Below are positions 39,497-64,000 of a stretch of 64,000 bases of DNA, piece after piece. The position numbers and the translations under genes were made by a program. This DNA is from Skermanella rosea (GTDB lineage Bacteria > Pseudomonadota > Alphaproteobacteria > Azospirillales > Azospirillaceae), in the NCBI RefSeq assembly GCF_016806835.2, contig NZ_CP086111.1:3775471-3839470 (forward strand), in the 5' to 3' direction. The notes below the pieces were generated by a model. The model was given only the letters and a program-made list of their open reading frames with translations. It was not told the origin of the DNA and did no database searches. How positions within the stretch are numbered: the first letter of the stretch is position 1; each line of letters starts with the position of its first letter.

Positions 39497-42400
39497 ATGA
39501 CCGGCCTTGTCGATGCCGCAGTTCTAGCTTTGGCGCCAGCCGTGACGAAGCTCCTGACGAAAGCATACCTGGGCGACAAGGCCGCGGAAATTACGGGTCC
39601 ACTGGCTCAGGTACTGAGCAGCCGGTTCGGTGAGATGCGCAAACAGCGGGAGTTGGCCCGTAAGCTTGAGAGCCTTGCCGACCATGTGGTGACCGAACTG
39701 GCTCTCGCGCTCGAAAGTGAGCGGATCCAGCCGGCCACATTCGAAGGCATCGCAAAGGAGATTGAGGCGGCCTTGGAGAGTCGTCTCAAAGCGCATTGGC
39801 TGCTTGAGCGAAATCTGGCCGCATCACAGATCCGGGATGCGCTTTTCGAGGCGCACTCGCTGCCGCCGGCGCAGTATGACCAAGCCGAACAACAGGTCTA
39901 CGGCCGCTCCCTCGAATATCTGAGTCATATCCTCGCCCGCCTAGCTCCCGAACTTCCGGATTATGCCCGTGAACGGGATGCAGAAATACTGCGTCGGTTC
40001 GATGATTTGAACGGCTCGATTACCGGAGTCGGCAAGCAGTTGGCTTCCCGGCTCCCGGCGATCGACGACCTGCATCGGTGGGCACACGAGGATCGTGAAT
40101 ATCGGAAGAACAAGGGCGAGGGGTTCGCCGAGATTTACAGCCGGAGCCTTATCGAGCGTCTCGACTATGTGGAACTGATCGGCGTCGACGTGCATAAGCG
40201 TGCCCGACGAGCGAAACTGTCGGTAGCCTACATCGAGTTGGATATCGACCTGGAAAGCGGCGCGGAGGACGCGAGCGGATTCAGTCGGGGCTTTCAAAGC
40301 CTGCTCGACGGACTAACGCCGAATTCTCGGTGTCTATTGGTTCTGGGTCAGGCAGGCAGCGGCAAGAGCACGCTTCTGCGCTGGGCTGCGCTGACCGCCG
40401 CCGAGCGCAGGAGCCAAGCCGAACCGCCGGCGGACGGAGACCTGCGCTGGCGCGACAGGGTGCCACTGCTGCTTTACTTGCGCGATCTTCAATCGCCCAA
40501 CCTTCCAACGCCTAACGATTGGCCTTTTCTGATCGACAGGGAATTACAGGCAAAGATACCGGAAAGCTGGGTCGAAGATATACTCGACGCCGGACAGGGG
40601 CTTGTCATGATAGACGGCTTCGATGAGGTGCCTCCCGACCAGCGAGATTTGGTCATGGAGAGCATTGAACGCTGCGTGCGACGCTTTCCCGCCGCGTTTT
40701 TCATCCTGACGAGCCGGCCTGCTGCCGTGGACGATGGCCGCATCGCCAGCCTCGGCTTTACCCGTGCAAGCGTTGCCGCCCTTACTCCAACAAATCGCGA
40801 GCGTTTCATCGATCATTGGCATGAGGCCCTGCGGGGCAATCTCACGTCCGAAGAAGCCGGGCTTGATACCGGCGGCATGGCTGCGAAGCTCAAAAACGCG
40901 CTCGGGCACAACGGAGCGCTGGCGTTGCTCGCGAGCAACCCGTTGCTCTGCGCGGCGATCTGCGCCCTGCACCATTTCCACGACAGCGACGAAGCCGAAC
41001 TTCCGGATCGCTTGGCGCCGCTGTGCGAGGAGGTTTGCAAGATGCTGCTGCACCGGCGGGAGCGGGTAGCGCTTAAGCGCCGGATCGATGAGTTCCCGGC
41101 GTGCTACGCGCGCATGACGTATGAACACAAGCGTGAAATCGTCTCCGAGATCGCGAAATCCATGATGGCGCAGGAACTTTCCTCCCTGCCTCGCGGTGCC
41201 GTGCTGGAAATCGTCCAGACCGGGCTTGCGCGCCTGGATGAGGGTTGGAGCGGAAATGCAGGCGAGTTGCTGGACGTTCTTGTCATGCGCAGCGGCATGC
41301 TGAGGCCCTCCGGACGCGACGAAATAGCCTTCATTCACAATACTCTGAAGGAATACCTTGCTGCTCCTAAGCTGGTCGGAGAGGGTTACCTGGAGACGTT
41401 CCTGCGCAAGAGCGGAGACTCTTCCTGGCAGCCGGTCATCGTTTTTGCCTGTGCGCTCGCGGGCAGGGATTTTACCGACAAGCTCATCGGGAGGCTTTTG
41501 GATGTAGATGCGGAAGTGGATACCGATGTCCGTAGTCGATACTTCCTGGCCATCCGCTGTGCCGAGGCCGCACTGGGATCGGGTGGGTTGGCTCCTGCTC
41601 TGCAACGCAAGGCTCAGAAAGCACGAGCCGCTCTGTTTCCGCCACAGAAACTGAAGGAAGCCGAATTGCTTGCTGAACTGGGCAATGCGGCGATCACCTA
41701 TCTGCGACCGACCAAGCAGTTGCGCGCAGTCGAGGCTGCAGCTTGTATACGCACTCTGCGAATTATAGGCACGGAGCCGGCTCTGGCCGCCTTGAAGGCA
41801 TTTGCCGATGACAAGAGGATAAAAGTCAGAGCTGAGTTTATCCGCACACCGAATGGCGGCCGCTTTCTTCCTCCCGAAAAAATTCAGAAGATAAAGGACT
41901 ATGTGTTCGGAAGTACTGATGTTAATGTTCCGCGTCCGGAAGAATTAGCTTGGCTGGATGGCCTAGATTTCCTCTTCGAGGGTGTATCGCCGGAGGACGT
42001 GAAGCGACTTTCCTTGGTCGGAGTGCGATTGAGAGGATTAGGCTTCCTTACTGGCTTTCACAACGTAACGTCGCTTGATCTCTCATATACCCAGGTCAGC
42101 GACATCGGTCCGATCGCCGAACTCACCGGCCTACAGTCGCTCGATCTTTCATTCACCCAGGTCAGCGACCTCCGCCCGATCACCGGACTCACCGGACTAC
42201 AGTCGCTCGATCTCTCATCCCCTCAGGTCAGCGACATCGGCCCGATCGCCGGACTCACCGAACTGCAGTCGCTCAATCTCTTATCTACGCAGGTCAGCGA
42301 CATCGGCCCGATTGCCGGACTCACCGGACTGCAGTCGCTCAGTCTCTCATCCCCCCAGGTCAGCGACATCGGCCCGATTGCCAGCCTCACCGGACTGCAG

Positions 42401-43270
42401 TCGCTCCGTCTCTCATCCCCCCAGGTCAGCGACATTGGCCCGATCGCCGGACTTACCGGACTGCAGTCGCTCAGTCTCTCGAACAACCAGGTCAGCGACA
42501 TCGGCCCGATCGCCGGACTCACTGGACTGCAGTCGCTCGATCTCTCACTCACCCTGGTCAGCGACATCGGTCCGATCTCCGGACTCACCGGATTGCGGTC
42601 ACTTGATCTCTGGAACACCCAGATCAGCGACATCGGCCCGATCGCCGGCCTCACCGGATTGCGGTCGCTTGTTCTCTGGAACACCCGGATCAGCGACATC
42701 GGCCCGATCGCCGGCCTTGCCGGACTGCAGTCGCTCCATCTCTCATATTCCCAAGTCAGCGACCTCCGTCCGATCGCCGGCCTTACCGGACTGCAGTCGC
42801 TCCATCTCTCATATTCCCAAGTCAGCGACCTCCGTCCGATCGCCGGCCTTGCCGGACTGCAGTCGCTCCATCTCTCAGCCGCCCAGGTCAGCGACCTCCG
42901 TCCGATCGCCGGCCTTGCCGGACTGCAGTCGCTCCATCTCTCAGCCACCCAGGTCAGCGACCTCCGTCCGATCGCAGGACTCACCGGACTGCAGTCACTC
43001 GATCTCTCAGCCACCCAGGTCAGCGACCTCCGTCCGATCGCAGGACTCACCGGACTGCAGTCGCTCGATCTCTCAGCCACCCAGGTCAACGACCTCCGTC
43101 CGATCGCAGGCCTCACCAAATTGCGGGTTCTCGACCTTCGGGGCACTCAGGTCAGCGACATCGGCCCGATCGCCGAACTCGCCGACCTGCAGTCGCTCGA
43201 TCTTCGCGGCACCCAAGTCAAAGAACTCGCACCAATCGCCGGCCTATCTGGATTGCTAGTGAAAAAATAG
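39497..43270 (+). CDS. NACHT-type STAND NTPase with 22-residue leucine-rich repeats
   Basis: 1257 residues. Order: an N-terminal helical region (1-260, charged, possibly an NNH-type NACHT N-terminal domain), and a NACHT NTPase with Walker A G-Q-A-G-S-G-K-S-T (about 283) and Walker B G-L-V-M-I-D-G-F-D-E-V-P (about 368). L-T-S-R-P (sensor 1) and winged-helix-like regions follow to about 650. Next are a helical part and then, from residue 868 to the end, 17 complete LRR units of exactly 22 residues (S-D-I/L-x-P-I-A-G-L-T-G-L-Q-S-L-x-L-S-x-x-Q-V) plus a partial one. No nuclease or membrane effector is recognised. Such bacterial NLR-like proteins are antiviral sensors in known cases. Codon use is clearly less GC-rich than in neighbours, which points to transfer. 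Confidence 0.9.
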   Translation: MTGLVDAAVLALAPAVTKLLTKAYLGDKAAEITGPLAQVLSSRFGEMRKQRELARKLESLADHVVTELALALESERIQPATFEGIAKEIEAALESRLKAHWLLERNLAASQIRDALFEAHSLPPAQYDQAEQQVYGRSLEYLSHILARLAPELPDYARERDAEILRRFDDLNGSITGVGKQLASRLPAIDDLHRWAHEDREYRKNKGEGFAEIYSRSLIERLDYVELIGVDVHKRARRAKLSVAYIELDIDLESGAEDASGFSRGFQSLLDGLTPNSRCLLVLGQAGSGKSTLLRWAALTAAERRSQAEPPADGDLRWRDRVPLLLYLRDLQSPNLPTPNDWPFLIDRELQAKIPESWVEDILDAGQGLVMIDGFDEVPPDQRDLVMESIERCVRRFPAAFFILTSRPAAVDDGRIASLGFTRASVAALTPTNRERFIDHWHEALRGNLTSEEAGLDTGGMAAKLKNALGHNGALALLASNPLLCAAICALHHFHDSDEAELPDRLAPLCEEVCKMLLHRRERVALKRRIDEFPACYARMTYEHKREIVSEIAKSMMAQELSSLPRGAVLEIVQTGLARLDEGWSGNAGELLDVLVMRSGMLRPSGRDEIAFIHNTLKEYLAAPKLVGEGYLETFLRKSGDSSWQPVIVFACALAGRDFTDKLIGRLLDVDAEVDTDVRSRYFLAIRCAEAALGSGGLAPALQRKAQKARAALFPPQKLKEAELLAELGNAAITYLRPTKQLRAVEAAACIRTLRIIGTEPALAALKAFADDKRIKVRAEFIRTPNGGRFLPPEKIQKIKDYVFGSTDVNVPRPEELAWLDGLDFLFEGVSPEDVKRLSLVGVRLRGLGFLTGFHNVTSLDLSYTQVSDIGPIAELTGLQSLDLSFTQVSDLRPITGLTGLQSLDLSSPQVSDIGPIAGLTELQSLNLLSTQVSDIGPIAGLTGLQSLSLSSPQVSDIGPIASLTGLQSLRLSSPQVSDIGPIAGLTGLQSLSLSNNQVSDIGPIAGLTGLQSLDLSLTLVSDIGPISGLTGLRSLDLWNTQISDIGPIAGLTGLRSLVLWNTRISDIGPIAGLAGLQSLHLSYSQVSDLRPIAGLTGLQSLHLSYSQVSDLRPIAGLAGLQSLHLSAAQVSDLRPIAGLAGLQSLHLSATQVSDLRPIAGLTGLQSLDLSATQVSDLRPIAGLTGLQSLDLSATQVNDLRPIAGLTKLRVLDLRGTQVSDIGPIAELADLQSLDLRGTQVKELAPIAGLSGLLVKK
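42098..43219 (+). repeat. 17 tandem 66-bp units encoding LRRs
   Basis: Each unit is exactly 66 bases, in frame, starting at the codon AGC/AAC of S/N-D. Units 1 and 3-10 mostly read GACATCGGCCCGATCGCC, while unit 2 and units 11-16 read GACCTCCGTCCGATCGCC. Units 12-15 are almost identical at DNA level. The array is not a CRISPR (no unrelated spacers). The pattern suggests expansion by unequal recombination. Confidence 0.9.
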
Positions 43271-43511: not shown

Positions 43512-43587
43512 TGGCGTCCCCAAGGGGATTCGAACCCCTGTTACCGCCGTGAGAGGGCGGTGTCCTAGGCCTCTAGACGATGGGGAC
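43512..43587 (-). tRNA. tRNA-Glu (anticodon CTC)
   Basis: A 76-base cloverleaf on the minus strand, starting GTCCCC and ending GGGGACGCCA with CCA encoded. The acceptor stem is GTCCCCA/TGGGGAC; the T-arm is AGGGG-TTCGAAT-CCCCT. The anticodon arm CCGCC-CTCTCAC-GGCGG gives anticodon CTC. Its 3' end faces the AT-rich NACHT-LRR region, the usual side for integration of mobile islands, though no direct repeat of the 3' end was found. Confidence 0.95.
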
Positions 43588-53526: not shown

Positions 53527-55595
53527 CCGCATCCGCCCCCCTGCTCGAGCTCGACCAAGTCACCATCAGCTACCGGCGCCGGCGCGACCGGGTCGATGCC
53601 GTCCGCGGCGTCTCGCTGGTGATCCAGCCCGGCGAGGCCTATGGGCTGGTCGGCGAATCCGGCTGCGGCAAGTCCACGCTCGCCATGGCCGTGATGCGCC
53701 ACCTGCCGAAGAACGGCATCCTCAGCGGCGGCCATGTCCTGTTCGAGGGCCGCGACCTGTTCCGGCTCGGCGAGGCGGAGCTGCGCCGGGTGCGCGGCGG
53801 CCGCATCGCCATGGTCTACCAGAACCCCGGCGGCGCGCTGAACCCCACGCTCCGGATCGGCGAGCAGGTGGCCGAGGTGTTCCGCCTGCATGCCGGCATG
53901 AACCGCCGGAACGCCGCCGAGGCGGCGCTCGGCATGCTGCGAAGGGTCCGGATCGCCGACCCCGACCGGGTCGCGGGCCTCTATCCCTACCAGCTCTCCG
54001 GCGGGATGCAGCAGCGCGCGGTGATCGCCATGGCGCTCGCCACCGACCCGGCCCTGCTGGTCCTGGACGAGCCGACGACGGCGCTGGATGCCACCGTCCA
54101 GGCCGACATCCTGGACCTGTTCGCCGACCTGCGTGGGGAGATGAACGCTGCCATCCTGTTCATCAGCCACAACCTGGCCGTGGTCCAGCAGGTCTGCGAC
54201 CGGATCGGGGTGATGTATGCCGGCGAGCTGATCGAGCAGGGCAAGGTTTCGGAAGTCTTCAAGCGGCCCAGGCATCCCTATACCGCGGCGCTGTTCGACT
54301 GCATCCCGGATTTCGGCGTGCGCAAGCGCGACCGCCGGCTGGCCGGGATCGCGGGCGGCGTGCCCGACCTGGCCGACCTGGGCACGGGATGCCTGTACGA
54401 GCCGCGCTGCCTGATCTCCCGCCAGGTCTGCCGGGTCGAGCATCCCGACCTGCTGCGCGCCGGCACCCGCCATCTCAGCCGCTGTTTCTTCCACGGCGAG
54501 ACCCCGGCGCCCGGCAGCGCCGCCCGCGGCCGGCCGGAGCCGGTGCCGGAGCCGATCCAGGGGATGCCGCTTCTCAGCCTTACCGGCGTCGGGCGGCGCT
54601 ACGGCCGCGCCCATATCCTCAAGGACATCGACCTGGAGATCGCGCCGGGCGAGACCTTCGGGCTGGTCGGCGAATCCGGCAGCGGCAAGTCCACGCTGGC
54701 CAAGGTGATCGCCGGGCTGGTGCCGCCCAGCGCCGGCACGGTGGCCCTGGCCGGCGAGCGGGTGGCGGGACAGGCCGGCCGGCGCACCCGGCGGCAGCGC
54801 CGCGACGTGCAGATGGTGTTCCAGACGCCGGACACGACGCTCAACCCGCGCAAGCGGGTCGCCTCGATCCTGGGCCGGGCCGTGCGGGTGCTGGCCGGCC
54901 TGGGCGGGCGGCGCAAGCGCGATCGCTCGGCAGCCCTGCTGGGCGACGTGCAGCTGCCGGCGGAGATGATGGGCGCCACCCCGGACCGGCTGTCGGGCGG
55001 CCAGCGCCAGCGGGTCGCCATCGCCCGCGCCTTCGCCGGCGATCCCCGGCTGGTGATCCTGGACGAGCCGACCTCCGCCCTGGACGTGTCGGTCCAGGCG
55101 TCGATCCTGAACCTGCTGCTCGACCTCCAGCGGGAAAGCCAGGCGGCCTACCTGTTCATCTCGCACGACCTGGCGGTGGTCCGCTACCTGTCGGATCGGA
55201 TCGGCGTGATGTATCTGGGCGAGCTGGTGGAGGTCGGGCCGACCGAGCGGGTGTTCCGGCCGCCCTTCCATCCGTATACCCAGGCGCTGATCGAGGCGGT
55301 GCCGCGGCTCGGTGCCGCCGCCCCGGAGCGCGCGGTGAGCCTGGACAAGCCGGCACCGAGCCCGGCGGACCGGCCCGAAGGCTGCCCGTTCCAAACCCGG
55401 TGCCCGCGGGCGTATGATAAGTGCCGGAGCGAGGCGCCGCCGTGGCGCGATGCGGGAGGGGGACATATGATCCGGTGCTGGGTGGCGCTCGACGCGCTGG
55501 AAGCGTCGCAGACTGCGGCACAGACGGCGACGGCGCAGAGGTCCCGGCGCAGCCGGGCCGCGCAGGCTCCGCTGCCGATCGGCCGGCGCCCATGA
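53523..55595 (+). CDS. fused DppD-DppF-type ABC ATPase
   Basis: 690 residues with two complete ABC ATPase halves in one chain, from a GTG that overlaps the permease stop. Half one (about 1-310) has Walker A G-E-S-G-C-G-K-S-T, signature L-S-G-G-M-Q-Q-R and Walker B L-L-V-L-D-E-P. Half two (about 345-670) has [17 protein letters not shown] and L-V-I-L-D-E-P. Both halves end in oligopeptide-transporter C-terminal domains with cysteines (C-L-Y-E-P-R-C and C-P-F-Q-T-R-C-P-R). It hydrolyses ATP for the transporter. The stop overlaps the PhnD-like gene as ATGA. Confidence 0.92.
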   Translation: MTASAPLLELDQVTISYRRRRDRVDAVRGVSLVIQPGEAYGLVGESGCGKSTLAMAVMRHLPKNGILSGGHVLFEGRDLFRLGEAELRRVRGGRIAMVYQNPGGALNPTLRIGEQVAEVFRLHAGMNRRNAAEAALGMLRRVRIADPDRVAGLYPYQLSGGMQQRAVIAMALATDPALLVLDEPTTALDATVQADILDLFADLRGEMNAAILFISHNLAVVQQVCDRIGVMYAGELIEQGKVSEVFKRPRHPYTAALFDCIPDFGVRKRDRRLAGIAGGVPDLADLGTGCLYEPRCLISRQVCRVEHPDLLRAGTRHLSRCFFHGETPAPGSAARGRPEPVPEPIQGMPLLSLTGVGRRYGRAHILKDIDLEIAPGETFGLVGESGSGKSTLAKVIAGLVPPSAGTVALAGERVAGQAGRRTRRQRRDVQMVFQTPDTTLNPRKRVASILGRAVRVLAGLGGRRKRDRSAALLGDVQLPAEMMGATPDRLSGGQRQRVAIARAFAGDPRLVILDEPTSALDVSVQASILNLLLDLQRESQAAYLFISHDLAVVRYLSDRIGVMYLGELVEVGPTERVFRPPFHPYTQALIEAVPRLGAAAPERAVSLDKPAPSPADRPEGCPFQTRCPRAYDKCRSEAPPWRDAGGGHMIRCWVALDALEASQTAAQTATAQRSRRSRAAQAPLPIGRRP

Positions 55596-56446
55596 GTCCT
55601 GGAGGAGCGGGCTCCGAAGCAGCACCCACCGCCCTCGCCGTCCGGCGGGCCTCCCTGCCGATGTATGATCTGCCGGAACTGCGGGATGCCCACGCGGCCC
55701 TGTGGCATGCCGTGGCGGGGCACATGGACGAGGCCGGCCTGGACGGCGTGCCCGGTCTTCTGACCTTCGACGGCGAGCCGGCCGACCTGTGGCAGGCGCC
55801 CGACCTGCTCCTCAGCCAGACCTGCGGGCTGCCGCTGGTGACCCGGCTGGGCGGGATGGTCAGGGTCGTGGCGACGCCCCGCTACCGGGCGCCGGGATGC
55901 AGCGGCAGCCGCCACCGCGGTTTCATCGTCGTCGGCGCGGACAGCCCGGTGCAGCGTCTAGTCGAACTGCGCGGCAGCCGCTGCGTGATCAACGGCTGGG
56001 ACAGCAACACCGGCATGAACATGCTGCGCGCGGCGGTCGCCCCGCTGGCCCGGGACGGCCGCTTCTTCGGCTCGGTGTCGGTCAGCGGCAGCCATCTGGC
56101 GAGCCTGAACCGGGTGGCCGACGGCGGCGCCGACGTCGCGGCGGTGGATTGCGTGACCTTCGCCCATCTCAGCCGCCATCGCGCCGCCCTGGTGGACGGG
56201 GTCCGCGTCCTGGCCGTGACGGCGGCGACGCCCTGCCTGCCGCTGGTCACCGCGGCCGGCACCGACGACGACACGCTGGCCGCCCTGCGGGCGGCGCTCC
56301 AGGCTGCCGCGTCGTCGCCCGGCCTGTCGGCGGTGCGTGCCGAACTGCTACTCGACGGCTTCGACTTCCTGCCCGACCGGGCCTACCGCGTCGTCACCGG
56401 CCTGGCGGCCCAGGCCGCGGCGGTGGGGTATCCGGAGCTGGCGTGA
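55592..56446 (+). CDS. PhnD-like substrate-binding protein without signal peptide
   Basis: 284 residues. The fold is a type 2 periplasmic-binding protein of the phosphate/phosphonate (PhnD) kind: R-A-S-L-P-M-Y-D-L-P, P-D-L-L-L-S-Q-T-C-G, V-V-A-T-P-R-Y, and C-V-I-N-G-W-D-S-N-T-G-M-N. G-S-H-L-A-S-L-N-R-V-A-D-G-x-A-D-V-A-A-V-D-C-V follows. I see no signal peptide, so the protein may be cytosolic; a regulator-like or thiamine-precursor-type role is possible. The start overlaps the ATPase gene, making it the fifth gene of the operon. Confidence 0.85.
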   Translation: MSPGGAGSEAAPTALAVRRASLPMYDLPELRDAHAALWHAVAGHMDEAGLDGVPGLLTFDGEPADLWQAPDLLLSQTCGLPLVTRLGGMVRVVATPRYRAPGCSGSRHRGFIVVGADSPVQRLVELRGSRCVINGWDSNTGMNMLRAAVAPLARDGRFFGSVSVSGSHLASLNRVADGGADVAAVDCVTFAHLSRHRAALVDGVRVLAVTAATPCLPLVTAAGTDDDTLAALRAALQAAASSPGLSAVRAELLLDGFDFLPDRAYRVVTGLAAQAAAVGYPELA

Positions 56447-56563
56447 GGGGCGCGGAGTTGTGGGGCTTATACGGGCATATGCTACTCAGCCGCCACGAAT
56501 TCCGGAGTTGCATTATCGTTCGCTAAGTGCGAACATCACGGAGAGAATGATCCATGTCAAACG

Positions 56564-56821
56564 ATGCAGATTCAATACGAAGCCCAAGCGGCCAAGTCGC
56601 TTCGCAAGCTGCCGGCCAACGTTCGCAACAGGATTCGATCCAAAATCGAACAGTATGCGCAAGACCCAACGTCGCTCGCCAATAACGTCATTCAGTTAAC
56701 TAACTCGGATCTTTTCCGTCTGCGCGTCGGCGACCACAGGGTGATTTTCGCCATCGAGAGTGGCATCGTCACTATCATGGTCGTTATCGATGTCCGACCG
56801 AGAGGAGCAGCCTATGACTGA
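56564..56821 (+). CDS. RelE/ParE-family toxin
   Basis: 85 residues. It has the RelE fold order: Y-E-A-Q-A-A-K-S-L-R-K-L-P, R-I-R-S-K-I-E-Q-Y-A, then L-F-R-L-R-V-G-D-H-R-V-I-F and the final V-D-V-R-P-R-G-A-A-Y. RelE toxins cut mRNA in the ribosome; the basic and Arg residues fit. It lies before its antitoxin gene, the reverse of the usual relBE order. The gene is less GC-rich than its neighbours. Confidence 0.85.
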   Translation: MQIQYEAQAAKSLRKLPANVRNRIRSKIEQYAQDPTSLANNVIQLTNSDLFRLRVGDHRVIFAIESGIVTIMVVIDVRPRGAAYD

Positions 56822-57143
56822 TACAATCACCATCCCACGGGCGGAGTACGACGCTCTCCGAACCCGTCTGGAAGATCTTGAGGACGTGCTGGCGGCTCAG
56901 ACCGCTCGCACCGGAATCACATTGCCCGCGGAATTCGCCAACCGTATCATGGATGGTGAGAATCCCATCCGTGTGTGGAGAGAGTATCGCGGTCTCGGAC
57001 TAAGAGAATTGGCTATCCGATCCGGACTGGCAGCAGGGTTTCTTTCTGAAATAGAAAATGGAAAACGAGTCGGCTCCATCGCTACTTATCGTGCTTTGGC
57101 ACGTTCACTGGACACATCGCTGGATTGGTTGGCGGACGAGTAA
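56814..57143 (+). CDS. HTH-type antitoxin of the RelE-family toxin
   Basis: 109 residues. The N-terminal 45 residues are helical and hydrophilic (T-I-P-R-A-E-Y-D-A-L-R-T-R-L-E-D-L-E-D-V). The C-terminal part is a Cro/XRE helix-turn-helix: W-R-E-Y-R-G-L-G-L-R-E-L-A-I-R-S-G-L-A-A-G-F-L-S-E-I-E-N-G-K-R-V. It overlaps the toxin gene by 8 bases; GAGGAG precedes the ATG. The helix-turn-helix presumably represses the operon. The order toxin-antitoxin resembles higBA systems. Confidence 0.87.
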   Translation: MTDTITIPRAEYDALRTRLEDLEDVLAAQTARTGITLPAEFANRIMDGENPIRVWREYRGLGLRELAIRSGLAAGFLSEIENGKRVGSIATYRALARSLDTSLDWLADE

Positions 57144-57207
57144 TAACCGCACCATCCTTTACTGACCGGGTTGCCCCGTTCGCCCAAACCAGCCGATCCC
57201 ATCGTCG

Positions 57208-57237
57208 CGTTGCGTTAGGCCACGGCCCAACGCAACG
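57208..57237. terminator. strong hairpin between the TA operon and the 57284 gene
   Basis: Arms CGTTGCGTTAGGC and GCCCAACGCAACG (13 positions, one A-C mismatch) with a CACG loop. It lies 65 bases after the antitoxin stop and 47 bases before the end of the gene on the other strand, so it may serve both. No T run. Confidence 0.55.
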
Positions 57238-57283
57238 ACCCGCCTGTAACAGCCGGGTCAGGCTGATCGGGTACCGCTTTCGA

Positions 57284-57814
57284 TCACCCGCCTCCCGCTC
57301 CGGTCATGGCCGACCGGGCCGTCTGCCGGGCTTGGCGGACCTTGTCCAGGCAGGTCCCGGTGTCGCCCCGCTCGGCGGCGGCGCGGCCTTCGCGCAGCAT
57401 CGCGGCCATGTCGTCGCGCTGCTGCGGCGTGATGGTGGCGCCCGCGCGGGTTCCCGGCTGCTGGCCCGGGTTGCGGCCCAGGGGAACAGGCTCGACGCCG
57501 CGGTCGGGCTGCTCGGAGCCGACGCCGCTGCCGATGCTGGACGGCGCCACCGTGCCGCCCGACCGTGCCAAGTCCCGGGATATCGCCTCGCGGCTGGTCG
57601 CCGAGCTTTGGGCCCGGTCGGCGTTGGGCGTTCCACCACCTTGCGGACTGGCCCCGGCCTGGTCGCCCGCCGGCCCGCCGCCCTGCGCGAACGCGGCTTC
57701 AAGGCGCTGTATCTCGTCCAGGCAGCTGTCCTGCTGCGCCATCGCCGGAAAGGCGGCGCCGGCCGCGATCAGGCCGGCCATCGCAAGGATCGGGGCAAGG
57801 ATCGGGACACGCAT
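57284..57814 (-). CDS. secreted protein of unknown function
   Basis: 176 residues from the ATG at 57814, which has GGAGGAG upstream. A signal peptide (about 1-26, ending A-M-A-Q) is followed by C-L-D-E-I-Q-R-L-E-A-A, a long Gly/Pro/Gln-rich disordered part, and a C-terminal helical segment with one more cysteine (D-T-G-T-C-L-D-K-V-R-Q-A-R). The two cysteines could form a disulfide. I do not recognise the family. It lies downstream of the DUF2934 gene in the same direction. Confidence 0.7.
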   Translation of the reverse strand: MRVPILAPILAMAGLIAAGAAFPAMAQQDSCLDEIQRLEAAFAQGGGPAGDQAGASPQGGGTPNADRAQSSATSREAISRDLARSGGTVAPSSIGSGVGSEQPDRGVEPVPLGRNPGQQPGTRAGATITPQQRDDMAAMLREGRAAAERGDTGTCLDKVRQARQTARSAMTGAGGG

Positions 57815-57843
57815 GGAACCACTCCTCCGTTCAACTCCGCGCA

Positions 57844-58122
57844 TCAGGTCGCGTCCTTCCGCCGGGCCTTGGCCATCCTGCTGCTGTTGGCGGCACCCGG
57901 CGACAGGGGAGCCTGCGGCGACCCGGTCGCCTCCATGCGTCCGGCGGCAACGGCCGACAGGTTCGGCTCGGCGTCGAACTCCCGGCCCGTCGCTGCATCC
58001 TCGGCCGCCAGTTCCCGGCAGGCCTGTTCCCAATGCTCGTCATTCCGGCCGTCGGGCTGTCCGGCATGCTCCCATATCTCATGGGCGCGCCGCCGGATGC
58101 GATCTTCCAGATTCCCCGTCAT
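57844..58122 (-). CDS. DUF2934 protein
   Basis: 92 residues. The N-terminal R-I-R-R-R-A-H-E-I-W-E-H-A-G-Q-P-D-G-R-N-D-E-H-W-E-Q-A block is the DUF2934 signature. The rest is low-complexity with Ala/Ser/Pro and a basic C-terminus. The function is unknown; the family is common in alphaproteobacterial stress-gene clusters. It lies between the secreted protein gene and the DUF2795 gene, all on the minus strand. Confidence 0.85.
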   Translation of the reverse strand: MTGNLEDRIRRRAHEIWEHAGQPDGRNDEHWEQACRELAAEDAATGREFDAEPNLSAVAAGRMEATGSPQAPLSPGAANSSRMAKARRKDAT

Positions 58123-58142
58123 CGCCAGTCCTCCGCAAGCGT

Positions 58143-58349
58143 TCAGCCGGCCTTGCCCACGCCCTTCATGACATCGGCCATGGTCTCGTACCGGCCGTCG
58201 GGCATCTTGCCGATCAAATCGACCACGCTCTCGTCGGCGCCCTGCTGCTTCGCGTGCTTGACCAGATCCTCCTTCCCGGCGGGAAAATCGATCCCCTTCA
58301 GGTGATGGGTCACGTCGGTCGGGGAATGTCCGTCCAGGCCCTTGCTCAT
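58143..58349 (-). CDS. DUF2795 protein
   Basis: 68 residues: H-S-P-T-D-V-T-H-H-L-K-G-I-D-F-P-A-G-K-E-D-L-V-K-H-A, then the end with L-I-G-K-M-P-D-G-R-Y-E-T-M-A-D-V-M-K-G-V. This is the DUF2795 pattern, a small soluble helical protein of unknown role. The 21-base gap to the DUF2934 gene points to one operon. Confidence 0.85.
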   Translation of the reverse strand: MSKGLDGHSPTDVTHHLKGIDFPAGKEDLVKHAKQQGADESVVDLIGKMPDGRYETMADVMKGVGKAG

Positions 58350-58639
58350 GTCGAAGTCTCCGGTTGCATGGATCGCTTAGATCCTGAGAACAGGCTTAGG
58401 CAGCGATCGTCACCATTCGCTTCAGAACAACCCGACGATCACTCATCACGCTGCCATCTCCACATCTACTCGTAGGATCGGCAGGAGCCTGCCACGTTCC
58501 GGAACTTTCACTTCGAGATCGAACCGATAACCTTCTGGCAACACGTTTTCCGCAATCCTCCAGGTTCGCTTTCGCAAGTCACGGAGCAGGAATGACCATG
58601 ACCCTCTATCGGTTTGTCTTCCTGTTTCAGAGGTGAAAC

Positions 58640-61600
58640 ATGACGTCGAGCGGTGACCGCATGCACAAATGTGCACCTCCATCAAAGGCGTACAAAAACT
58701 TTTGCCTGACGCCGATAATCAGCTTAGCTCTTGTCTTTTGCGCTTTTCTGGCCGTGCCGGCGTTGTGCGACGAGCCTCGGTACGTTCCACAACTTGGTCT
58801 GACCGATCTCAGTCCAAGGAAGGTTCTATTCAGGCCCGGTGACCCTCAAACCTTGATGGTAGTCAATGACAACGGACGAATCGATCTCTTCAACATTTCC
58901 AACCCTGGTCGCCCGATTAAGACTGTTGAGATTTTCGCGGGTGCGCGCGTCGCGGTTTTCAGCCCTTCGGGTAACCATATCGCTTCAGGTGGCGACGACG
59001 GAGCGGTAAGGATTTGGACCCTCGACGGGAAAGCGTCAGCGCGACCCTTCCGGGGACATGAGTCGAGGATCACCAGCGTCGCTTTCAACCCGGACGGCAC
59101 GCGCATCTTTTCTGCCGATTGGGATGGAACGATACGCATCTGGACACTTGACGGAACACCGGCACTTGATCCGATCCGAGGCCACGAGGGTACGGTGTGG
59201 AGCATCGCCGTTAGCCCGCTGGGCGACCGTATCGTTTCGACTGGAGCCGATGGAACTGTAAGGCTGTGGATGCTAGATGGGACTCACTCAACCGAACCAT
59301 TGAGGGGCCATGAGGGCAATGTATGGACTGCTGCATTCAACCCCCGCGGTGATCGCATCGTCTCCGGCGGGGAGGATGGGACGGTACGGGTCTGGGATCT
59401 CGATGGAAGTTTAGTCGCCGGACCCTTTCGCGGACATGAAGGCTGGGTCGGTAGCGCGGTATTCAGCCAGTCCGGCTACCGAATCGCATCAGCTGGACTG
59501 GATGGAACGCTAAAAGTTTGGTCGCTCGACGGAAAAGGTCCGGTCGAGTCGATGAAAGGGCACGACGGTGCAATTTTCAGTATCGCCTTCGCGGACGGAA
59601 GCAATCAGATAGTTTCTGGTGGCAATGATGGAACTGTCAGACTCTGGGTGCTTGATTCGAGCTCCCGTCAGCCTAGTTTCCGAGCGCACGACGGTGCGGC
59701 TATGGCAGTCGCCTTGAACCCGGCAGGGGACCGCATCGTCTCTGGCGGACAGGATGGTAAGGTCAAGCTCTGGACGCTCGACGGATCTCCGGTCACCGAG
59801 CCCTTTAAAGGGCATGACGGCTGGATTTCAAGCGTAGTCTTCCACCCAGCGGGCGATCGGATAATTTCGGGCGGCCAGGACGGAACCGTTCGACTGTGGT
59901 CATTGGACGGCACGCCAGTCGTGCCCCCCTTCAGGGGACACCAGGGAGCCGTCCTGCACGTTGCCGTCAGCCCGTTGGGAGACCGCATCGCTTCCGGCGG
60001 CACCGACGGCACTATCAGGATCTGGAATCTTGACGGTACGCCCGCCGCCGCACCCTTCCATGGAGACGGTTGGATTTGGAGCCTGGCCTTCAATCCTGCG
60101 GGCGATCGAATCGCCTCAGGCGACCATGGTGGAACTGTGCGGCTTTGGACCCTCGACGGCACGCTCGCCGCAGCGCCCTACAAGGGGCATGGAGACGCTG
60201 TCAGGAGCGTCGACTTCAATCCATCCGGGGATGTCATTGTTTCCGGTGGTCAGGATGGAACGGTTCGGCTTTGGACCCTGGATGGCAAGCCAATCGCCAA
60301 ACCTGCCAAAGCGAAAGGTGGCTGGATCACCATCGTCGCCTTCGACCATACCGGCGACCGTATTGTTTCCAGCGGCCAGTCTGGAGGTGTAGACCTACGG
60401 AGTCCGGAAGGGACATTGACAGATTCGGTTACCCGGAATACCGGCGGCTGGGGTGCCTCCGACTGGATCTGGAGCGCCGCTTTCAACCACGCTGGCGACC
60501 GCATCGTCGCAGGAGGCCAGAATGGGTTCATTAGCATATGGACAATCAAGGGGTCATCCGTTGGAGATCCAATCCGGGGGCGGTTTCAGTCTTCCTGGCT
60601 CGTAAACCTCAGCCCGACGGGTGAACGGGTCGCAATCCTTAACTTTTTTGGGACGATAAAGGCCCAAACTTTAGACAGCGGCTTGGTTTCGCAACCATTC
60701 AAATTATTTGGTGGGCATCCACTAGCATTTGCATTGAACCCCGGGATTGATCTGGTTGCGTCAGTCGGTGTTGATGGAGCGGTACGGATCCAGAATTTCG
60801 CCGGAACCCAGATCGGTGAACCCTTCCAAGGTCATGATGGCGAGATCAAGAGCCTCGCATTCAATCCTGTAGGCGATCGGATCGCTTCGGCTGGTGCGGA
60901 CGGGACGGTGCGTCTTTGGAAGCTTACCGGCGAACCTGCCGCAGAACCCTTCCGGGGACACGAAGGCGCCGTGTTAAGCGTTGCCTTCAACCCAGCGGGC
61001 GATCGCATTGTTTCAGGCGACCAAGACGGTACCATACGCCTGTGGAGGCTCGACGGCCAGCCAGCCTCAGAGCCCTTCGAGTTGCCCGGGGCCTCGTTCG
61101 ATACGGTGGTTTTCAGCCCTTCGGGAGGCCGCATTGTTTCGGGTGCCCAGGGCCACCTGTTGTACCTTTGGGATTTGTCGGGAGGGGGACGACTGCTTGA
61201 CCCCACCTGTCCGATGAAGAGTATTCAGGTACTCGGTCACAACACGTATGCACTGCAATGTCCTGACAGAGTACGACTGCTGGACGATGACTTTGTCTGG
61301 AAAGGCGATATGTTCTTGCATACCGATGGGTTGGTCATTATGACGGCGGAAGGGGTATTGGCACCTTCGGACGAATCACAACTCCTCGTCCGCGGCTTCG
61401 ATCAAGGTGGCGCTCTTCTGACGTCACGTGGCGCGGTACCTGCTATCACCATGGCACGTGCCCGGCAGATCCTGTTCGACAACTGGACGGATTGGGAGCA
61501 ATTCGAAAACGCCGTCCGCCAAATAGCGCGAGCCTTGGTCGAGACTTACGACGGTTTCGACATATGGACGAAGCGATTTCTCTGGCCAGCACTACTGTGG

Positions 61601-62965
61601 ATTATGGTGCTTCTTTCGGCAGTTTTCCTATGGTTTATTACGCCGGCACGGCTGGCCCACTGGGCGATGCCGGTTACCGGTTCATCATCTCCACCATCAT
61701 GGAAATGGCTTCTTGATATTATTACCCTTTATAAGTGGTTCGGCACGACGAGGAGGCCGCTGAAGGCTTGGCTTCGTAAGCATCGCGCCGCTCTGGAAGC
61801 GGAGTGTTTCACGAGATCTCCCGCGGTCGGGGAGCGCTTGCGATACTTGGCCTTCTTCCACGAGGAAAAGGTCGCCGCGTTCAAGAAATCTATCGGTTCT
61901 GGCGGTCGGGGGATCATCTGGATTGATGGCGTCGGGGGAAGCGGCAAGAGCGCCCTTGCGTTTCACCTCGTCCGGGAGAGTCTCCTCGATCGGCGGCGCG
62001 CGCCTGTTCCCGTGCTGGTGGATGAGGATTGGGAGGGATCACTCGCTGCCCTGGTGGCCGCACGACTCAGTCTCCTCCAGTGGGATCGCAGCCCGACGGA
62101 AGCCATGGTCAAGACCCTTGGCGCCGCAGGCTGGCTCTGCCCAGTGGTTGACTCCCTGAGCGAAAGGGCCATGAAGGATGCTGTCGAGAGGATTGGCAGG
62201 GCACTATCCGAACGCCATTTCCGTCATCTCATCGTTACCTCCCGAAAGCCACCGCCACAGGGCCACGTCTGGCAACGAGCCGATCGTCTGGAGACGCAAC
62301 CCCTGGAACTCGAGAATGTTCCGGCTTTCATCACCGCCTATGTTCCGGAGGATAAATGCGCGGAGGTGGAGAAAAGAATCAGCGCTCTCGTGAATGCGCC
62401 ATCAATCCCAAGCCCCTTGTTTCTGCGCTTTGCGATAGAGCAAGCCCTGCACAACCCCCTTGGTTCGACTGAAAAGCTTGATCTGGTGCTGCACTACGTG
62501 GAAGCGCTGCGCGTGGACAAGGTAAACCTCGATCCCGACGATATGGCGCTGGCAGCGGCGATAGCCGCCGTTGAAGCCGTGCGGGAGCATTTGATTCCCC
62601 GGGAGATCGAGCGATCCTACCTGCGCGGCATTCTAATGGCGGAAGCCGATAAATCAGCATTCATGGATGCCCAAAGCGAAGCGAAAGTGGAGCCTGTCGC
62701 TGTCATCGAAATGCTCGTGTCTTCCGGCCTCCTCAAACAGAACCTCACCAATCGCCGTCTGCAATTCACCTACGACCCCGTCGCGGAATACCTCGCGGCT
62801 TGGCGACTGAAAAACTCGAACGTCGAAACGGCAGTGGAAATGAGGAAACGGATTGCATCGAATCCTGAAAGCGCGATCGGGCGCGCTTTGAATGAAATGG
62901 TGGCCGGTGCTTCGGGTGAAGACCGGAGCATATCCGGCATTCCCGACACTGCACCGGCCACATGA
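58640..62965 (+). CDS. membrane-spanning WD40-repeat/STAND NTPase receptor
   Basis: 1441 residues. Order: a signal sequence or first helix (about 21-43); 18 WD40-type units of about 41 residues up to about residue 860 (each with G-D-R-I-x-S-G-G, D-G-T-V-R-L-W-x-L-D-G and G-H-x-G marks); and a short domain with C-P-D-R-V-R-L-L-D. One membrane helix at about 978-1002 follows (L-W-P-A-L-L-W-I-M-V-L-L-S-A-V-F-L-W-F-I). After it comes a P-loop NTPase with Walker A G-V-G-G-S-G-K-S (about 1096), a Walker B-like C-P-V-V-D-S-L-S-E (about 1173) and V-T-S-R-K (sensor 1). The C-terminus is helical. A gene fusion or frame error is not suggested. GAGGTG precedes the ATG. Codon use is visibly less GC-rich than in neighbours. 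Confidence 0.88.
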   Translation: MTSSGDRMHKCAPPSKAYKNFCLTPIISLALVFCAFLAVPALCDEPRYVPQLGLTDLSPRKVLFRPGDPQTLMVVNDNGRIDLFNISNPGRPIKTVEIFAGARVAVFSPSGNHIASGGDDGAVRIWTLDGKASARPFRGHESRITSVAFNPDGTRIFSADWDGTIRIWTLDGTPALDPIRGHEGTVWSIAVSPLGDRIVSTGADGTVRLWMLDGTHSTEPLRGHEGNVWTAAFNPRGDRIVSGGEDGTVRVWDLDGSLVAGPFRGHEGWVGSAVFSQSGYRIASAGLDGTLKVWSLDGKGPVESMKGHDGAIFSIAFADGSNQIVSGGNDGTVRLWVLDSSSRQPSFRAHDGAAMAVALNPAGDRIVSGGQDGKVKLWTLDGSPVTEPFKGHDGWISSVVFHPAGDRIISGGQDGTVRLWSLDGTPVVPPFRGHQGAVLHVAVSPLGDRIASGGTDGTIRIWNLDGTPAAAPFHGDGWIWSLAFNPAGDRIASGDHGGTVRLWTLDGTLAAAPYKGHGDAVRSVDFNPSGDVIVSGGQDGTVRLWTLDGKPIAKPAKAKGGWITIVAFDHTGDRIVSSGQSGGVDLRSPEGTLTDSVTRNTGGWGASDWIWSAAFNHAGDRIVAGGQNGFISIWTIKGSSVGDPIRGRFQSSWLVNLSPTGERVAILNFFGTIKAQTLDSGLVSQPFKLFGGHPLAFALNPGIDLVASVGVDGAVRIQNFAGTQIGEPFQGHDGEIKSLAFNPVGDRIASAGADGTVRLWKLTGEPAAEPFRGHEGAVLSVAFNPAGDRIVSGDQDGTIRLWRLDGQPASEPFELPGASFDTVVFSPSGGRIVSGAQGHLLYLWDLSGGGRLLDPTCPMKSIQVLGHNTYALQCPDRVRLLDDDFVWKGDMFLHTDGLVIMTAEGVLAPSDESQLLVRGFDQGGALLTSRGAVPAITMARARQILFDNWTDWEQFENAVRQIARALVETYDGFDIWTKRFLWPALLWIMVLLSAVFLWFITPARLAHWAMPVTGSSSPPSWKWLLDIITLYKWFGTTRRPLKAWLRKHRAALEAECFTRSPAVGERLRYLAFFHEEKVAAFKKSIGSGGRGIIWIDGVGGSGKSALAFHLVRESLLDRRRAPVPVLVDEDWEGSLAALVAARLSLLQWDRSPTEAMVKTLGAAGWLCPVVDSLSERAMKDAVERIGRALSERHFRHLIVTSRKPPPQGHVWQRADRLETQPLELENVPAFITAYVPEDKCAEVEKRISALVNAPSIPSPLFLRFAIEQALHNPLGSTEKLDLVLHYVEALRVDKVNLDPDDMALAAAIAAVEAVREHLIPREIERSYLRGILMAEADKSAFMDAQSEAKVEPVAVIEMLVSSGLLKQNLTNRRLQFTYDPVAEYLAAWRLKNSNVETAVEMRKRIASNPESAIGRALNEMVAGASGEDRSISGIPDTAPAT

Positions 62966-63060
62966 TCCAGAATGTCCGTTGATCCAACACCGCCTTTCAT
63001 ACGGCGCCAAGCCAAGGATTGTTTCAACTTTCGCCTTCAATCGCTCCGTCGCCCGTTAAG

Positions 63061-63094
63061 GCGTGAGGCGGCGCCATCCGGCGCCGCCTCACGC
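63061..63094 (-). terminator. terminator-like hairpin just after aapP
   Basis: Perfect 15-bp arms GCGTGAGGCGGCGCC (63061-63075) and GGCGCCGCCTCACGC (63080-63094) with an ATCC loop, one base beyond the aapP stop. Reading on the minus strand it is followed by TTAACGG, so the T run is weak, but the stem is very strong. Confidence 0.75.
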
Positions 63095-63095
63095 T

Positions 63096-63872
63096 TCAAT
63101 GCGCCAGGATCTGGCTGAGGAACAGCTTGGTCCGTTCCGACTGCGGGTTGTTGAAGAATTCCAGCGGCTCGTTCTGCTCGACGATCTCGCCGCGGTCCAT
63201 GAAGATCACCCGGTTCGCCACGGTGCGGGCGAAGCCCATCTCGTGGGTCACGCAGAGCATCGTCATGCCCTCCTGGGCGAGGCTGATCATGACGTCCAGG
63301 ACCTCCTTGATCATCTCGGGGTCGAGGGCGGAGGTCGGCTCGTCGAACAGCATGACCTTGGGGTTCATGCACAGCGAGCGGGCGATCGCCACGCGCTGCT
63401 GCTGGCCGCCGGAGAGCTGGCCCGGGTATTTCCGGGCCTGGTCGGGGATGCGCACCCGCTCCAGGTACTTCATCGCCATCGCCTCGGCCTGGTCCTTGGG
63501 CATCTTGCGGACCCAGATCGGCGCCAGGGTGCAGTTCTCCAGCACGGTCAGGTGGGGAAACAGGTTGAAGTGCTGGAACACCATGCCGACGTCGCGGCGA
63601 ACCTGGTCGATGTTCTTCAGGTTGTTGGTCAGCTCGATCCCGTCCACCACGATGCGGCCGCGCTGGTGCTCCTCCAGCCGGTTGATGCAGCGGATCAGCG
63701 TGGACTTGCCGGAGCCGGACGGGCCGCAGATCACGATCCGCTCGCCGCGCGCCACGGTCAGGTTGATGCCCTTCAGCACGTGGAACTCGCCGTACCACTT
63801 GTGCACGTCGCTGAGCTGGACCGCGATGTCGTTGCCAGCCTCGGGCGCCGCCGTTTGTCTCGCGTCGCTCAT
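63096..63872 (-). CDS. aapP: polar amino-acid ABC transporter ATP-binding protein
   Basis: 258 residues. Walker [10 protein letters not shown], the family's [11 protein letters not shown]-loop, signature L-S-G-G-Q-Q-Q-R and Walker [15 protein letters not shown], with the switch His in V-T-H-E-M-G-F-A. It is of the GlnQ/AapP kind. It starts 24 bases after the permease gene, which is the standard aapJQMP order, so it is the last gene of that operon. The name aapP rests on that order and on the taxon. Confidence 0.9.
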
Positions 63873-63896
63873 GTGTCGTCTCCCGGTAGAATGCGT

Positions 63897-64000
63897 TTAT
63901 CGCTTGTGGCCGCGGTGCAGTTCCTGTTCCAGCCACTGGCTGTACTTCGACATGAAGAAGCAGAAGACGAAGTAGATCAGCGCCACGAACAGGTACGACT
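63897..64000 (-). CDS. amino-acid ABC permease, C-terminal fragment (5' end outside window)
   Basis: 34 codons are visible to the TAA at 63897-63899. The sequence Y-L-F-V-A-L-I-Y-F-V-F-C-F-F-M-S-K-Y-S-Q-W-L-E-Q is the last membrane helix and tail of the HisM/GlnP-type permease (AapM-like). It precedes aapP by 24 bases. Confidence 0.85.
   Translation of the reverse strand, partial: SYLFVALIYFVFCFFMSKYSQWLEQELHRGHKR

Follow-up and report, generated by a model that had tools for sequence, protein, structure and literature searches.

Within a 64,000-nucleotide stretch of the Skermanella rosea genome (contig NZ_CP086111.1, positions 3,775,471 to 3,839,470; hereafter the window), we identified a gene whose product almost certainly combines a signal peptide, a series of WD40 units, a single transmembrane (TM) helix and a NACHT-like nucleoside triphosphatase (NTPase), in that order. 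We read this WD40-NACHT protein as a one-component type I membrane NLR-like receptor acting in biological conflict, a whole reading in which our confidence falls just short of even. As judged from sequence, the architecture is conserved, the switch carries NACHT-type motifs together with a profile match, and the gene was gained horizontally; the topology is predicted, and the ligand, the oligomerisation, the output and the defence role of the receptor are inferred. The reading draws on the same domain order in three distant bacteria, the NACHT profile match, signal and TM segments in all three members, a matched cysteine spacing in two of them, a WD unit number that varies while the switch is conserved, a genomic slot used elsewhere by HepT-MNT or MNT genes, and a candidate defence cluster beside the copy in Ruegeria.

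Domain architecture and predicted topology

An initial annotation of this stretch had recognised a signal sequence, WD40 units, one membrane helix and a STAND P-loop NTPase in a single frame, and this was confirmed by a Pfam WD40 match, hydropathy, nucleotide-binding motifs and two relatives. These relatives came from a scan of genome contigs for the C-terminal part, using six exact 8-residue patterns taken from one protein, in which 2 of 41 pattern stretches proved to encode relatives: one in Ruegeria lacuscaerulensis HKCCD5857 (L005 6475-10275, with a likely start ~75 residues into the frame) and one in a Phycisphaeraceae metagenome-assembled genome (L006 297-2699, on a 3.3-kb contig), referred to below as the planctomycete copy. 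Both carry signal, WD units, TM helix and STAND NTPase in the same order within one frame, ruling out a frameshift fusion of two genes. In the C-terminal part, identity to the window protein is 49% (Ruegeria) and 45% (planctomycete); across the full alignment the values are 46% and 43%.

A Walker B motif with an extra acidic residue and a TSR sensor are defining motifs of STAND/NACHT proteins; here both VDSLSE and TSR are invariant in the three members and line up with their NACHT equivalents, and Walker A reads GVGGSGKS, GVGGSGKS and GPGGGGKS. We compared the three-member profile by hhalign with eight bacterial NACHT proteins: the NACHT-LRR protein of the window and seven, all annotated NACHT, from the 47 plasmid records that this protein had matched. 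The alignment covers 274 columns with a probability of 97.4% and a score of 88.6; it starts at Walker A, takes in Walker B and TSR, and extends through the C-terminal helical/winged-helix region as far as the terminal F-x-Y/H...EYLAA motif. Scores reached at most 21.3 in 30 full column shuffles of the profile, and at most 49.7 (probability at most 85.8%, at most 115 columns) in 30 shuffles that kept the first 30 columns with Walker A, while an ABC ATPase control aligned over 20 columns around Walker A (82.3%); shuffles and control together rule out a chance motif match. Nine nSTAND1 proteins aligned with the switch over just 31 columns around Walker A (84.0%), which, with their reversed domain order, rules out nSTAND1 membership; a comparison of the NACHT alignment with the nSTAND1 alignment, by contrast, extends over 234 columns. 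By motifs and profile match, the NTPase that had been called STAND-like is a NACHT-type STAND switch. Two traits are specific to the family: the stretch VLVDEDWEGSL, which is invariant, and a juxtamembrane segment (aa 1002-1085) that is conserved and is a candidate output or adaptor region.

The sensor region is dominated by WD40 repeats (Pfam PF00400, E 1.2e-134, 13 stretches). Our register count, for which the W positions of three degenerate units were placed by hand, gives an N-terminal unit and 18 more that end at residue 846, 15 of the 18 being exactly 42 residues long, and the low entropy of the D-H-S-W tetrad (D34 0.70, H12 1.37, S30 0.35 and W40 0.57 bits) identifies them as WD40 repeats; they would form two or three propellers. 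Mutual identity across 15 units averages 42% for amino acids and 51% for DNA, and no recent repeat amplification was seen in the window copy (DNA identity mean 0.51, maximum 0.67). Three other matches in this region were set aside: PADLOC HEAT-ARM_XIII, whose best stretch falls in the WD40 repeats and was not taken as membership, an NCBIfam fimbrial adhesin model below its cut-off, and NCBIfam TIGR02433 (TilS C-terminal), 1.1 bits over its cut-off, the last two also lying in WD units.

With a Kyte-Doolittle mean over 19 residues and a limit of 1.4, just two segments of the window protein stand out, residues 21-39 (2.54) and 983-1001 (2.24), and a signal-like segment and a single TM segment recur at equivalent places in all three members. 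The 938-residue ectodomain of the window protein holds two cysteines, 17 residues apart; the Ruegeria ectodomain (705 residues) likewise has two, C681 and C698, at the identical spacing, and the short planctomycete ectodomain has none. Net charge of ectodomain and cytosolic part is -20/+2 in the window protein, -20/+10 in Ruegeria and -1/+23 in the planctomycete copy, and in the three-member alignment the share of invariant columns rises modestly across the predicted cleavage site, from 6/25 (ungapped) before it to 29/66 after. The proposal that the propellers lie outside and the NTPase inside the membrane is thus supported as a predicted topology by the signal and TM segments and the cysteine pattern, and we consider a type I, N-out/C-in arrangement with WD40 outside and the NTPase inside very likely on these sequence grounds.

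Distribution, genomic slot and neighbours

The family is rare, with three members and one fragment in total across the collections searched. With the C-terminal part as query, 3 of 99 genomes of the host's own relatives matched, namely the window genome itself and two (G085 and G023) that we discounted because their weak matches, 59-60 residues long and centred on the P-loop, reflect P-loop similarity. With the three-member alignment as query, the window genome was the only match in its class (1/385) and phylum (1/398), the Ruegeria genome the only one in its family (1/345) and genus (1/54), and the planctomycete the only one in its class (1/298); its phylum gave 2/343, itself and a fragment in genome G857. 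The genome sets overlap, and in the larger searches these counts rest on no more than 4-5 scored candidates from each genome; distant members were possibly missed as a result. Viral contigs (0 relatives among the same 63 stretches), plasmids and phage records yielded no family member. The G857 fragment is a 209-aa open frame (L014 9665-10294) with the motif DEWSGS and a stretch of related NTPase (E 1.1e-16); frames close to it are, judged by eye, transposase-like.

Between members, the switch is conserved and the WD unit number changes, from 19 in the window protein to 13 in Ruegeria and 3 in the planctomycete copy. The N-terminal part and the NTPase can be aligned in all three, and the internal repeats are largely unpaired one to one: among the 42-aa units compared, the nearest match lies within the protein itself for 8 of 9 in Ruegeria and for 9 of 15 in the window protein, whose remaining units comprise 4 ties and 2 that resemble a Ruegeria unit more.

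Comparison with congeners places the gene in a strain-specific, AT-richer insert of 4.7 kb, with a left edge at 58366 against G002 and at 58415 against G001. The gene is less GC-rich than its neighbours, as had been noted: its GC content is 58.2%, and its GC content at third codon positions (GC3) is 0.62 vs. 0.80-0.96 in five flanking host genes. The region of the downstream ABC gene is matched in all five genomes of the genus, this one included, and the gene is present in 1/5; whole-genome searching of the four congeners (G001-G004) turned up no relative. Three of these have both flanks without the gene: G002 with about 660 bp in its place (nearest flanks 95.8% and 97.5% identical), G001 with 400 bp (92.4% and 96.6%) and G004 with 1290 bp (79.9% and 88.1%); in G003, the downstream flank alone aligned in the stretch compared. 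On this sequence evidence the gene was horizontally acquired. The G004 slot (L050 13514-14328) encodes HepT-like and nucleotidyltransferase proteins, a toxin-antitoxin of HepT-MNT type, and G002 keeps a nucleotidyltransferase (MNT) gene; PADLOC lists both nucleotidyltransferases under candidate PDC-S09. The slot is a small site with exchanged cargo.

The initial annotation also had the gene following a toxin-antitoxin pair. There is indeed a ParE-type toxin and helix-turn-helix (HTH) pair upstream, but it is a separate insertion, with 1.15 kb common with G002 between the two; in its place, G002 has about 225 bp and G001 an IS66 element. The WD40-NACHT gene is the only one in its own transcription direction, with a convergent gene downstream and minus-strand genes upstream. 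An AGAGG motif stands at -11 to -7 of its ATG, no match was found in a promoter-consensus scan of 58100-58700, and no tRNA lies in 54000-64000 of the window. The inverted repeat downstream, a possible terminator, sits between the convergent gene ends at the right junction of the insert. Elsewhere in the window there is an NLR-like NNH1-NACHT-LRR protein of 1257 aa; matches in G001 and G002 begin only at 43512 in the stretches compared, so that it may lie in another strain-specific segment.

Inspection of the homologues' neighbours for defence genes was informative for one of the two relatives. The Ruegeria gene is divergent to a candidate defence cluster of a C5 DNA methylase, a PRTase-CE protein, an ORC-CDC6-like ATPase and a PADLOC CARF6-type protein, and an HD-CE/HATPase protein lies some 5 kb past the cluster, beyond a transposase. 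The term PRTase-CE did not occur in the open-licence literature searched. Downstream of the Ruegeria gene are a HicB-like antitoxin, a FecR-domain protein, a CHASE2-cyclase, a patatin and a catalase-family protein.

Table 1. Features of the WD40-NACHT gene and its surroundings (window positions unless a locus is named)
Feature	Position	Strand or place	Details and basis
Whole gene, 1441 aa, single open frame	58640..62965	+	open reading frame list and translation
Predicted signal peptide, aa 1-43, hydrophobic core 21-39	58640..58768	+	hydropathy
19 WD-type units, aa 45-846, mostly 42-aa register	58772..61177	+	Pfam, register count
Membrane-proximal ectodomain, aa 847-982, with the sole two ectodomain cysteines C857 and C874	61178..61585	+	cysteine count
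Single predicted TM helix, aa 983-1001	61586..61642	+	hydropathy; in all 3 family members
Conserved cytosolic juxtamembrane segment, aa 1002-1085, without a Pfam match of its own	61643..61894	+	alignment, Pfam
NACHT-like STAND module, aa about 1086-1392	61895..62815	+	alignment, profile comparison
Walker A	61928-61951	+	GVGGSGKS, aa 1097-1104
Walker B	62147-62164	+	VDSLSE, aa 1170-1175
TSR sensor	62237-62245	+	aa 1200-1202
Terminal QFTYDPVAEYLAAWRL of NACHT-like module	62762-62809	+	alignment
15-bp perfect inverted repeat, ATCC loop	63061..63094 (arms 63061-63075 and 63080-63094)	.	read by eye
Strain-specific insert replacing about 0.4-1.3 kb of congeners	58416..63081	.	comparison with congeners
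ParE-type toxin and HTH pair, GC 54%	56460-57213	upstream of WD40-NACHT gene	strain-specific insert
NNH1-NACHT-LRR protein	39497-43270	+	GC3 0.68
Ruegeria candidate defence cluster, with the more distant HD-CE protein	L005 711-5892 and L036 398-2959		

Comparison with known STAND proteins

That the sensor precedes the NTPase, reversing the usual domain order, is supported. The accompanying statement that known WD40-STAND proteins are cytosolic was too strong, as there are nSTAND1 proteins with a helix between NTPase and propellers. For instance, two of the four loci over the nSTAND1 cut-off in the host's own genome were examined, and one (L033, G000:C1:5684500-5690800, around 5686475) encodes an nSTAND1-WD40 protein with a helix (Kyte-Doolittle mean 2.27) between NTPase and WD40, a net charge of +5 before and -2 after the helix, and no cysteine after it; the longest frame of the other (L034), covering part of the gene, shows no helix when judged by the Kyte-Doolittle measure. 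Relatives also occur in 61 plasmid records, from which we took a sample of 8 on the basis of annotation and match. All eight proteins exceed the Pfam nSTAND1 cut-off, and WD40 is over its cut-off in seven and sub-threshold in L059. Six (L059 and L062-L066; Pfam WD40 over cut-off in 5 of the 6) have a helix separating the NTPase from the propeller region, and the net charge before this helix, on the side of the NTPase, is positive; L060 has no helix, and L061 has helices before the NTPase instead. Propellers outside and a STAND NTPase inside are therefore probably common among nSTAND1-WD40 proteins, going by these predictions. The likeness to the window protein is an NTPase predicted inside and propellers predicted outside with one helix between; the difference is that the nSTAND1 proteins place the NTPase first and use an nSTAND1 engine, whereas the window protein places the sensor first. 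Its topology thus has precedents, and what is distinctive is the inverted order with a signal peptide, a NACHT engine and no recognised effector.

With bacterial NACHT/NLR-like proteins, such as the NNH1-NACHT-LRR protein of the window and, as far as the available text describes it, a metacaspase-NACHT-WD40 protein (PMC3501461), the window protein has in common a NACHT-type core through the C-terminal region and a repeat sensor. Their NACHT precedes the repeats, whereas here the order is sensor-TM-NACHT with no recognised effector. Avs and bacterial NACHT antiviral proteins likewise join a STAND switch and a repeat sensor in one protein, and according to the accessible part of PMC10907252 they are usually tripartite, with an N-terminal effector and a C-terminal sensor. 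The window protein departs from this effector-NTPase-sensor layout, its sensor being N-terminal and no effector being recognised. STAND proteins diversified by diversity-generating retroelements (DGRs) resemble it in pairing a STAND with a variable sensor, and at one DGR locus the NACHT and CLec domains of one target are predicted to lie in the cytoplasm and those of the other in the periplasm; their sensor is a C-type-lectin fold, and no signal-WD40-TM-NACHT order was found in the part of that account available (PMC10907252). More broadly, a signal peptide with sensor-TM-NACHT order was not found described in the available text of the open-licence literature (including PMC10907252, PMC7159879, PMC8195603 and PMC3501461), subscription papers lying outside the search.

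Some antiphage systems also work at the membrane. We know of no WD40-STAND protein in Zorya or in SNIPE, which we take to be the membrane-bound nuclease system. By the accessible parts of their descriptions, the membrane-bound nuclease (PMC13190303) and Zorya (PMC11890865) both act at the membrane during infection.

Proposed mechanism and alternatives

In the receptor model, export of the N-terminus would place the WD40 ectodomain in the periplasm, held by one membrane helix, where it could bind a ligand such as a phage part, an envelope component or a foreign peptide. Binding would shift or cluster the membrane helices; the NACHT module in the cytosol, thereby released, would exchange ATP and oligomerise, and once activated it would produce a local growth-stopping or killing output. 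As neither an effector domain nor an operon partner was recognised, that output would come from the juxtamembrane segment together with the membrane helices, or from a host partner. A role in conflict or defence is suggested by the slot with toxin-antitoxin genes, the patchiness and the Ruegeria context.

Several observations weigh against the receptor model. Around the TM helix, the window protein has a weak charge bias at 15 and 30 residues, and in Ruegeria the bias at these distances is reversed: net charge outside/inside is -1/+1 (window), +2/+1 (Ruegeria) and 0/+2 (planctomycete) within 15 residues, -1/+1, +3/0 and 0/+2 within 30, and -1/+6, +3/+4 and 0/+6 within 45. The three units of the planctomycete copy, possibly an assembly collapse, are too few for a propeller alone. 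Pfam NACHT (PF05729) and NB-ARC do not match the switch at curated cut-offs, the best sub-threshold scores at the P-loop being NPHP3_N at 16.9 bits (cut-off 24.8) and NB-ARC at 12.6 (23.5), and no effector domain was recognised in the window protein in Pfam, PADLOC and NCBIfam scans. The gene has no operon partner, its closest neighbours in the window are also present in congeners, and neighbours are readable in just one of the two relatives, the planctomycete contig being too short.

One argument for the model was withdrawn. Across 15 window units, the most variable of the 42 WD positions are 17, 33 and 15 (3.14, 3.00 and 2.87 bits), followed by 6, 24 and 41 (2.84, 2.79 and 2.73 bits), and by a rule in the accessible text of PMC3419727, positions 17, 33 and 15 correspond to the top-face contact sites R1, D-1 and R1-2. 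In a stricter set of 9 window units, positions 15, 17 and 33 rank 9, 1 and 3 in variability; their ranks are 6/1/11, 2/6/1, 3/6/16, 1/10/4 and 1/3/2 in Ruegeria and four nSTAND1-WD40 proteins (2, 6, 1 in L060 and 1, 3, 2 in L064), with the register fixed from W so that indels blur the ranks. Top-face variability is thus ordinary for WD40 propellers in these controls and was dropped as a sign of a selected binding face; because it is not specific, we lowered our confidence in the receptor model from even to slightly below even.

Alternatively, the protein may be a regulator of envelope or environmental stress: coupled to a transmembrane sensor, its NACHT would act through a host partner on transcription or transport rather than in immunity. 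A solitary gene without a recognised effector, a single TM helix and a juxtamembrane segment that could dock a partner would all suit such a regulator, but its patchy distribution (one genome in five of its own genus, one in 54 in Ruegeria) and a slot common to toxin-antitoxin genes speak against it, and we regard it as unlikely. Rather less probable still is kin or neighbour recognition, in which the WD40 ectodomain would read the surface or secreted molecules of competitors and the NACHT would trigger a self-limiting or counter-attack response, in the manner of fungal STAND/WD-repeat incompatibility proteins. Those fungal proteins carry near-identical repeats, whereas the window repeats are moderately alike at the identities given above. 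Repeat turnover beside a conserved switch fits this alternative, and the available text of PMC10907252 draws the fungal incompatibility parallel for other bacterial STAND systems.

That the gene is decaying or inert mobile cargo with no present function would accord with its rarity and with the G857 fragment of a related NTPase among transposase-like frames, but the 1441-codon frame is intact, as are nucleotide motifs that are invariant in three members, making this quite improbable. Least probable of all is a cytosolic protein whose hydrophobic segments are not true membrane elements: the topology is based on hydropathy and composition, and the charge bias at 15 and 30 residues is weak or, in Ruegeria, opposite, yet both segments lie at equivalent places in all three members and the two-cysteine ectodomain has matched spacing in two of them.

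Returning to the receptor model, it is possible, though somewhat doubtful, that these proteins form an undescribed family of single-protein transmembrane NLR-type receptors for outside-in immune sensing, with sensing outside, a NACHT inside, the output in the membrane-proximal segment and no separate effector. To our knowledge, those bacterial NLR-like proteins that have been tested detect intruders within the cell. If the model is true, an NLR-type alarm can be raised at the envelope ahead of phage gene expression, and the topology of nSTAND1-WD40 proteins has been reached also in the opposite domain order. What a NACHT module does alone at the membrane, with no recognised effector domain, would then become testable, and with the whole system in one 4.3-kb frame, the gene lends itself to direct testing.

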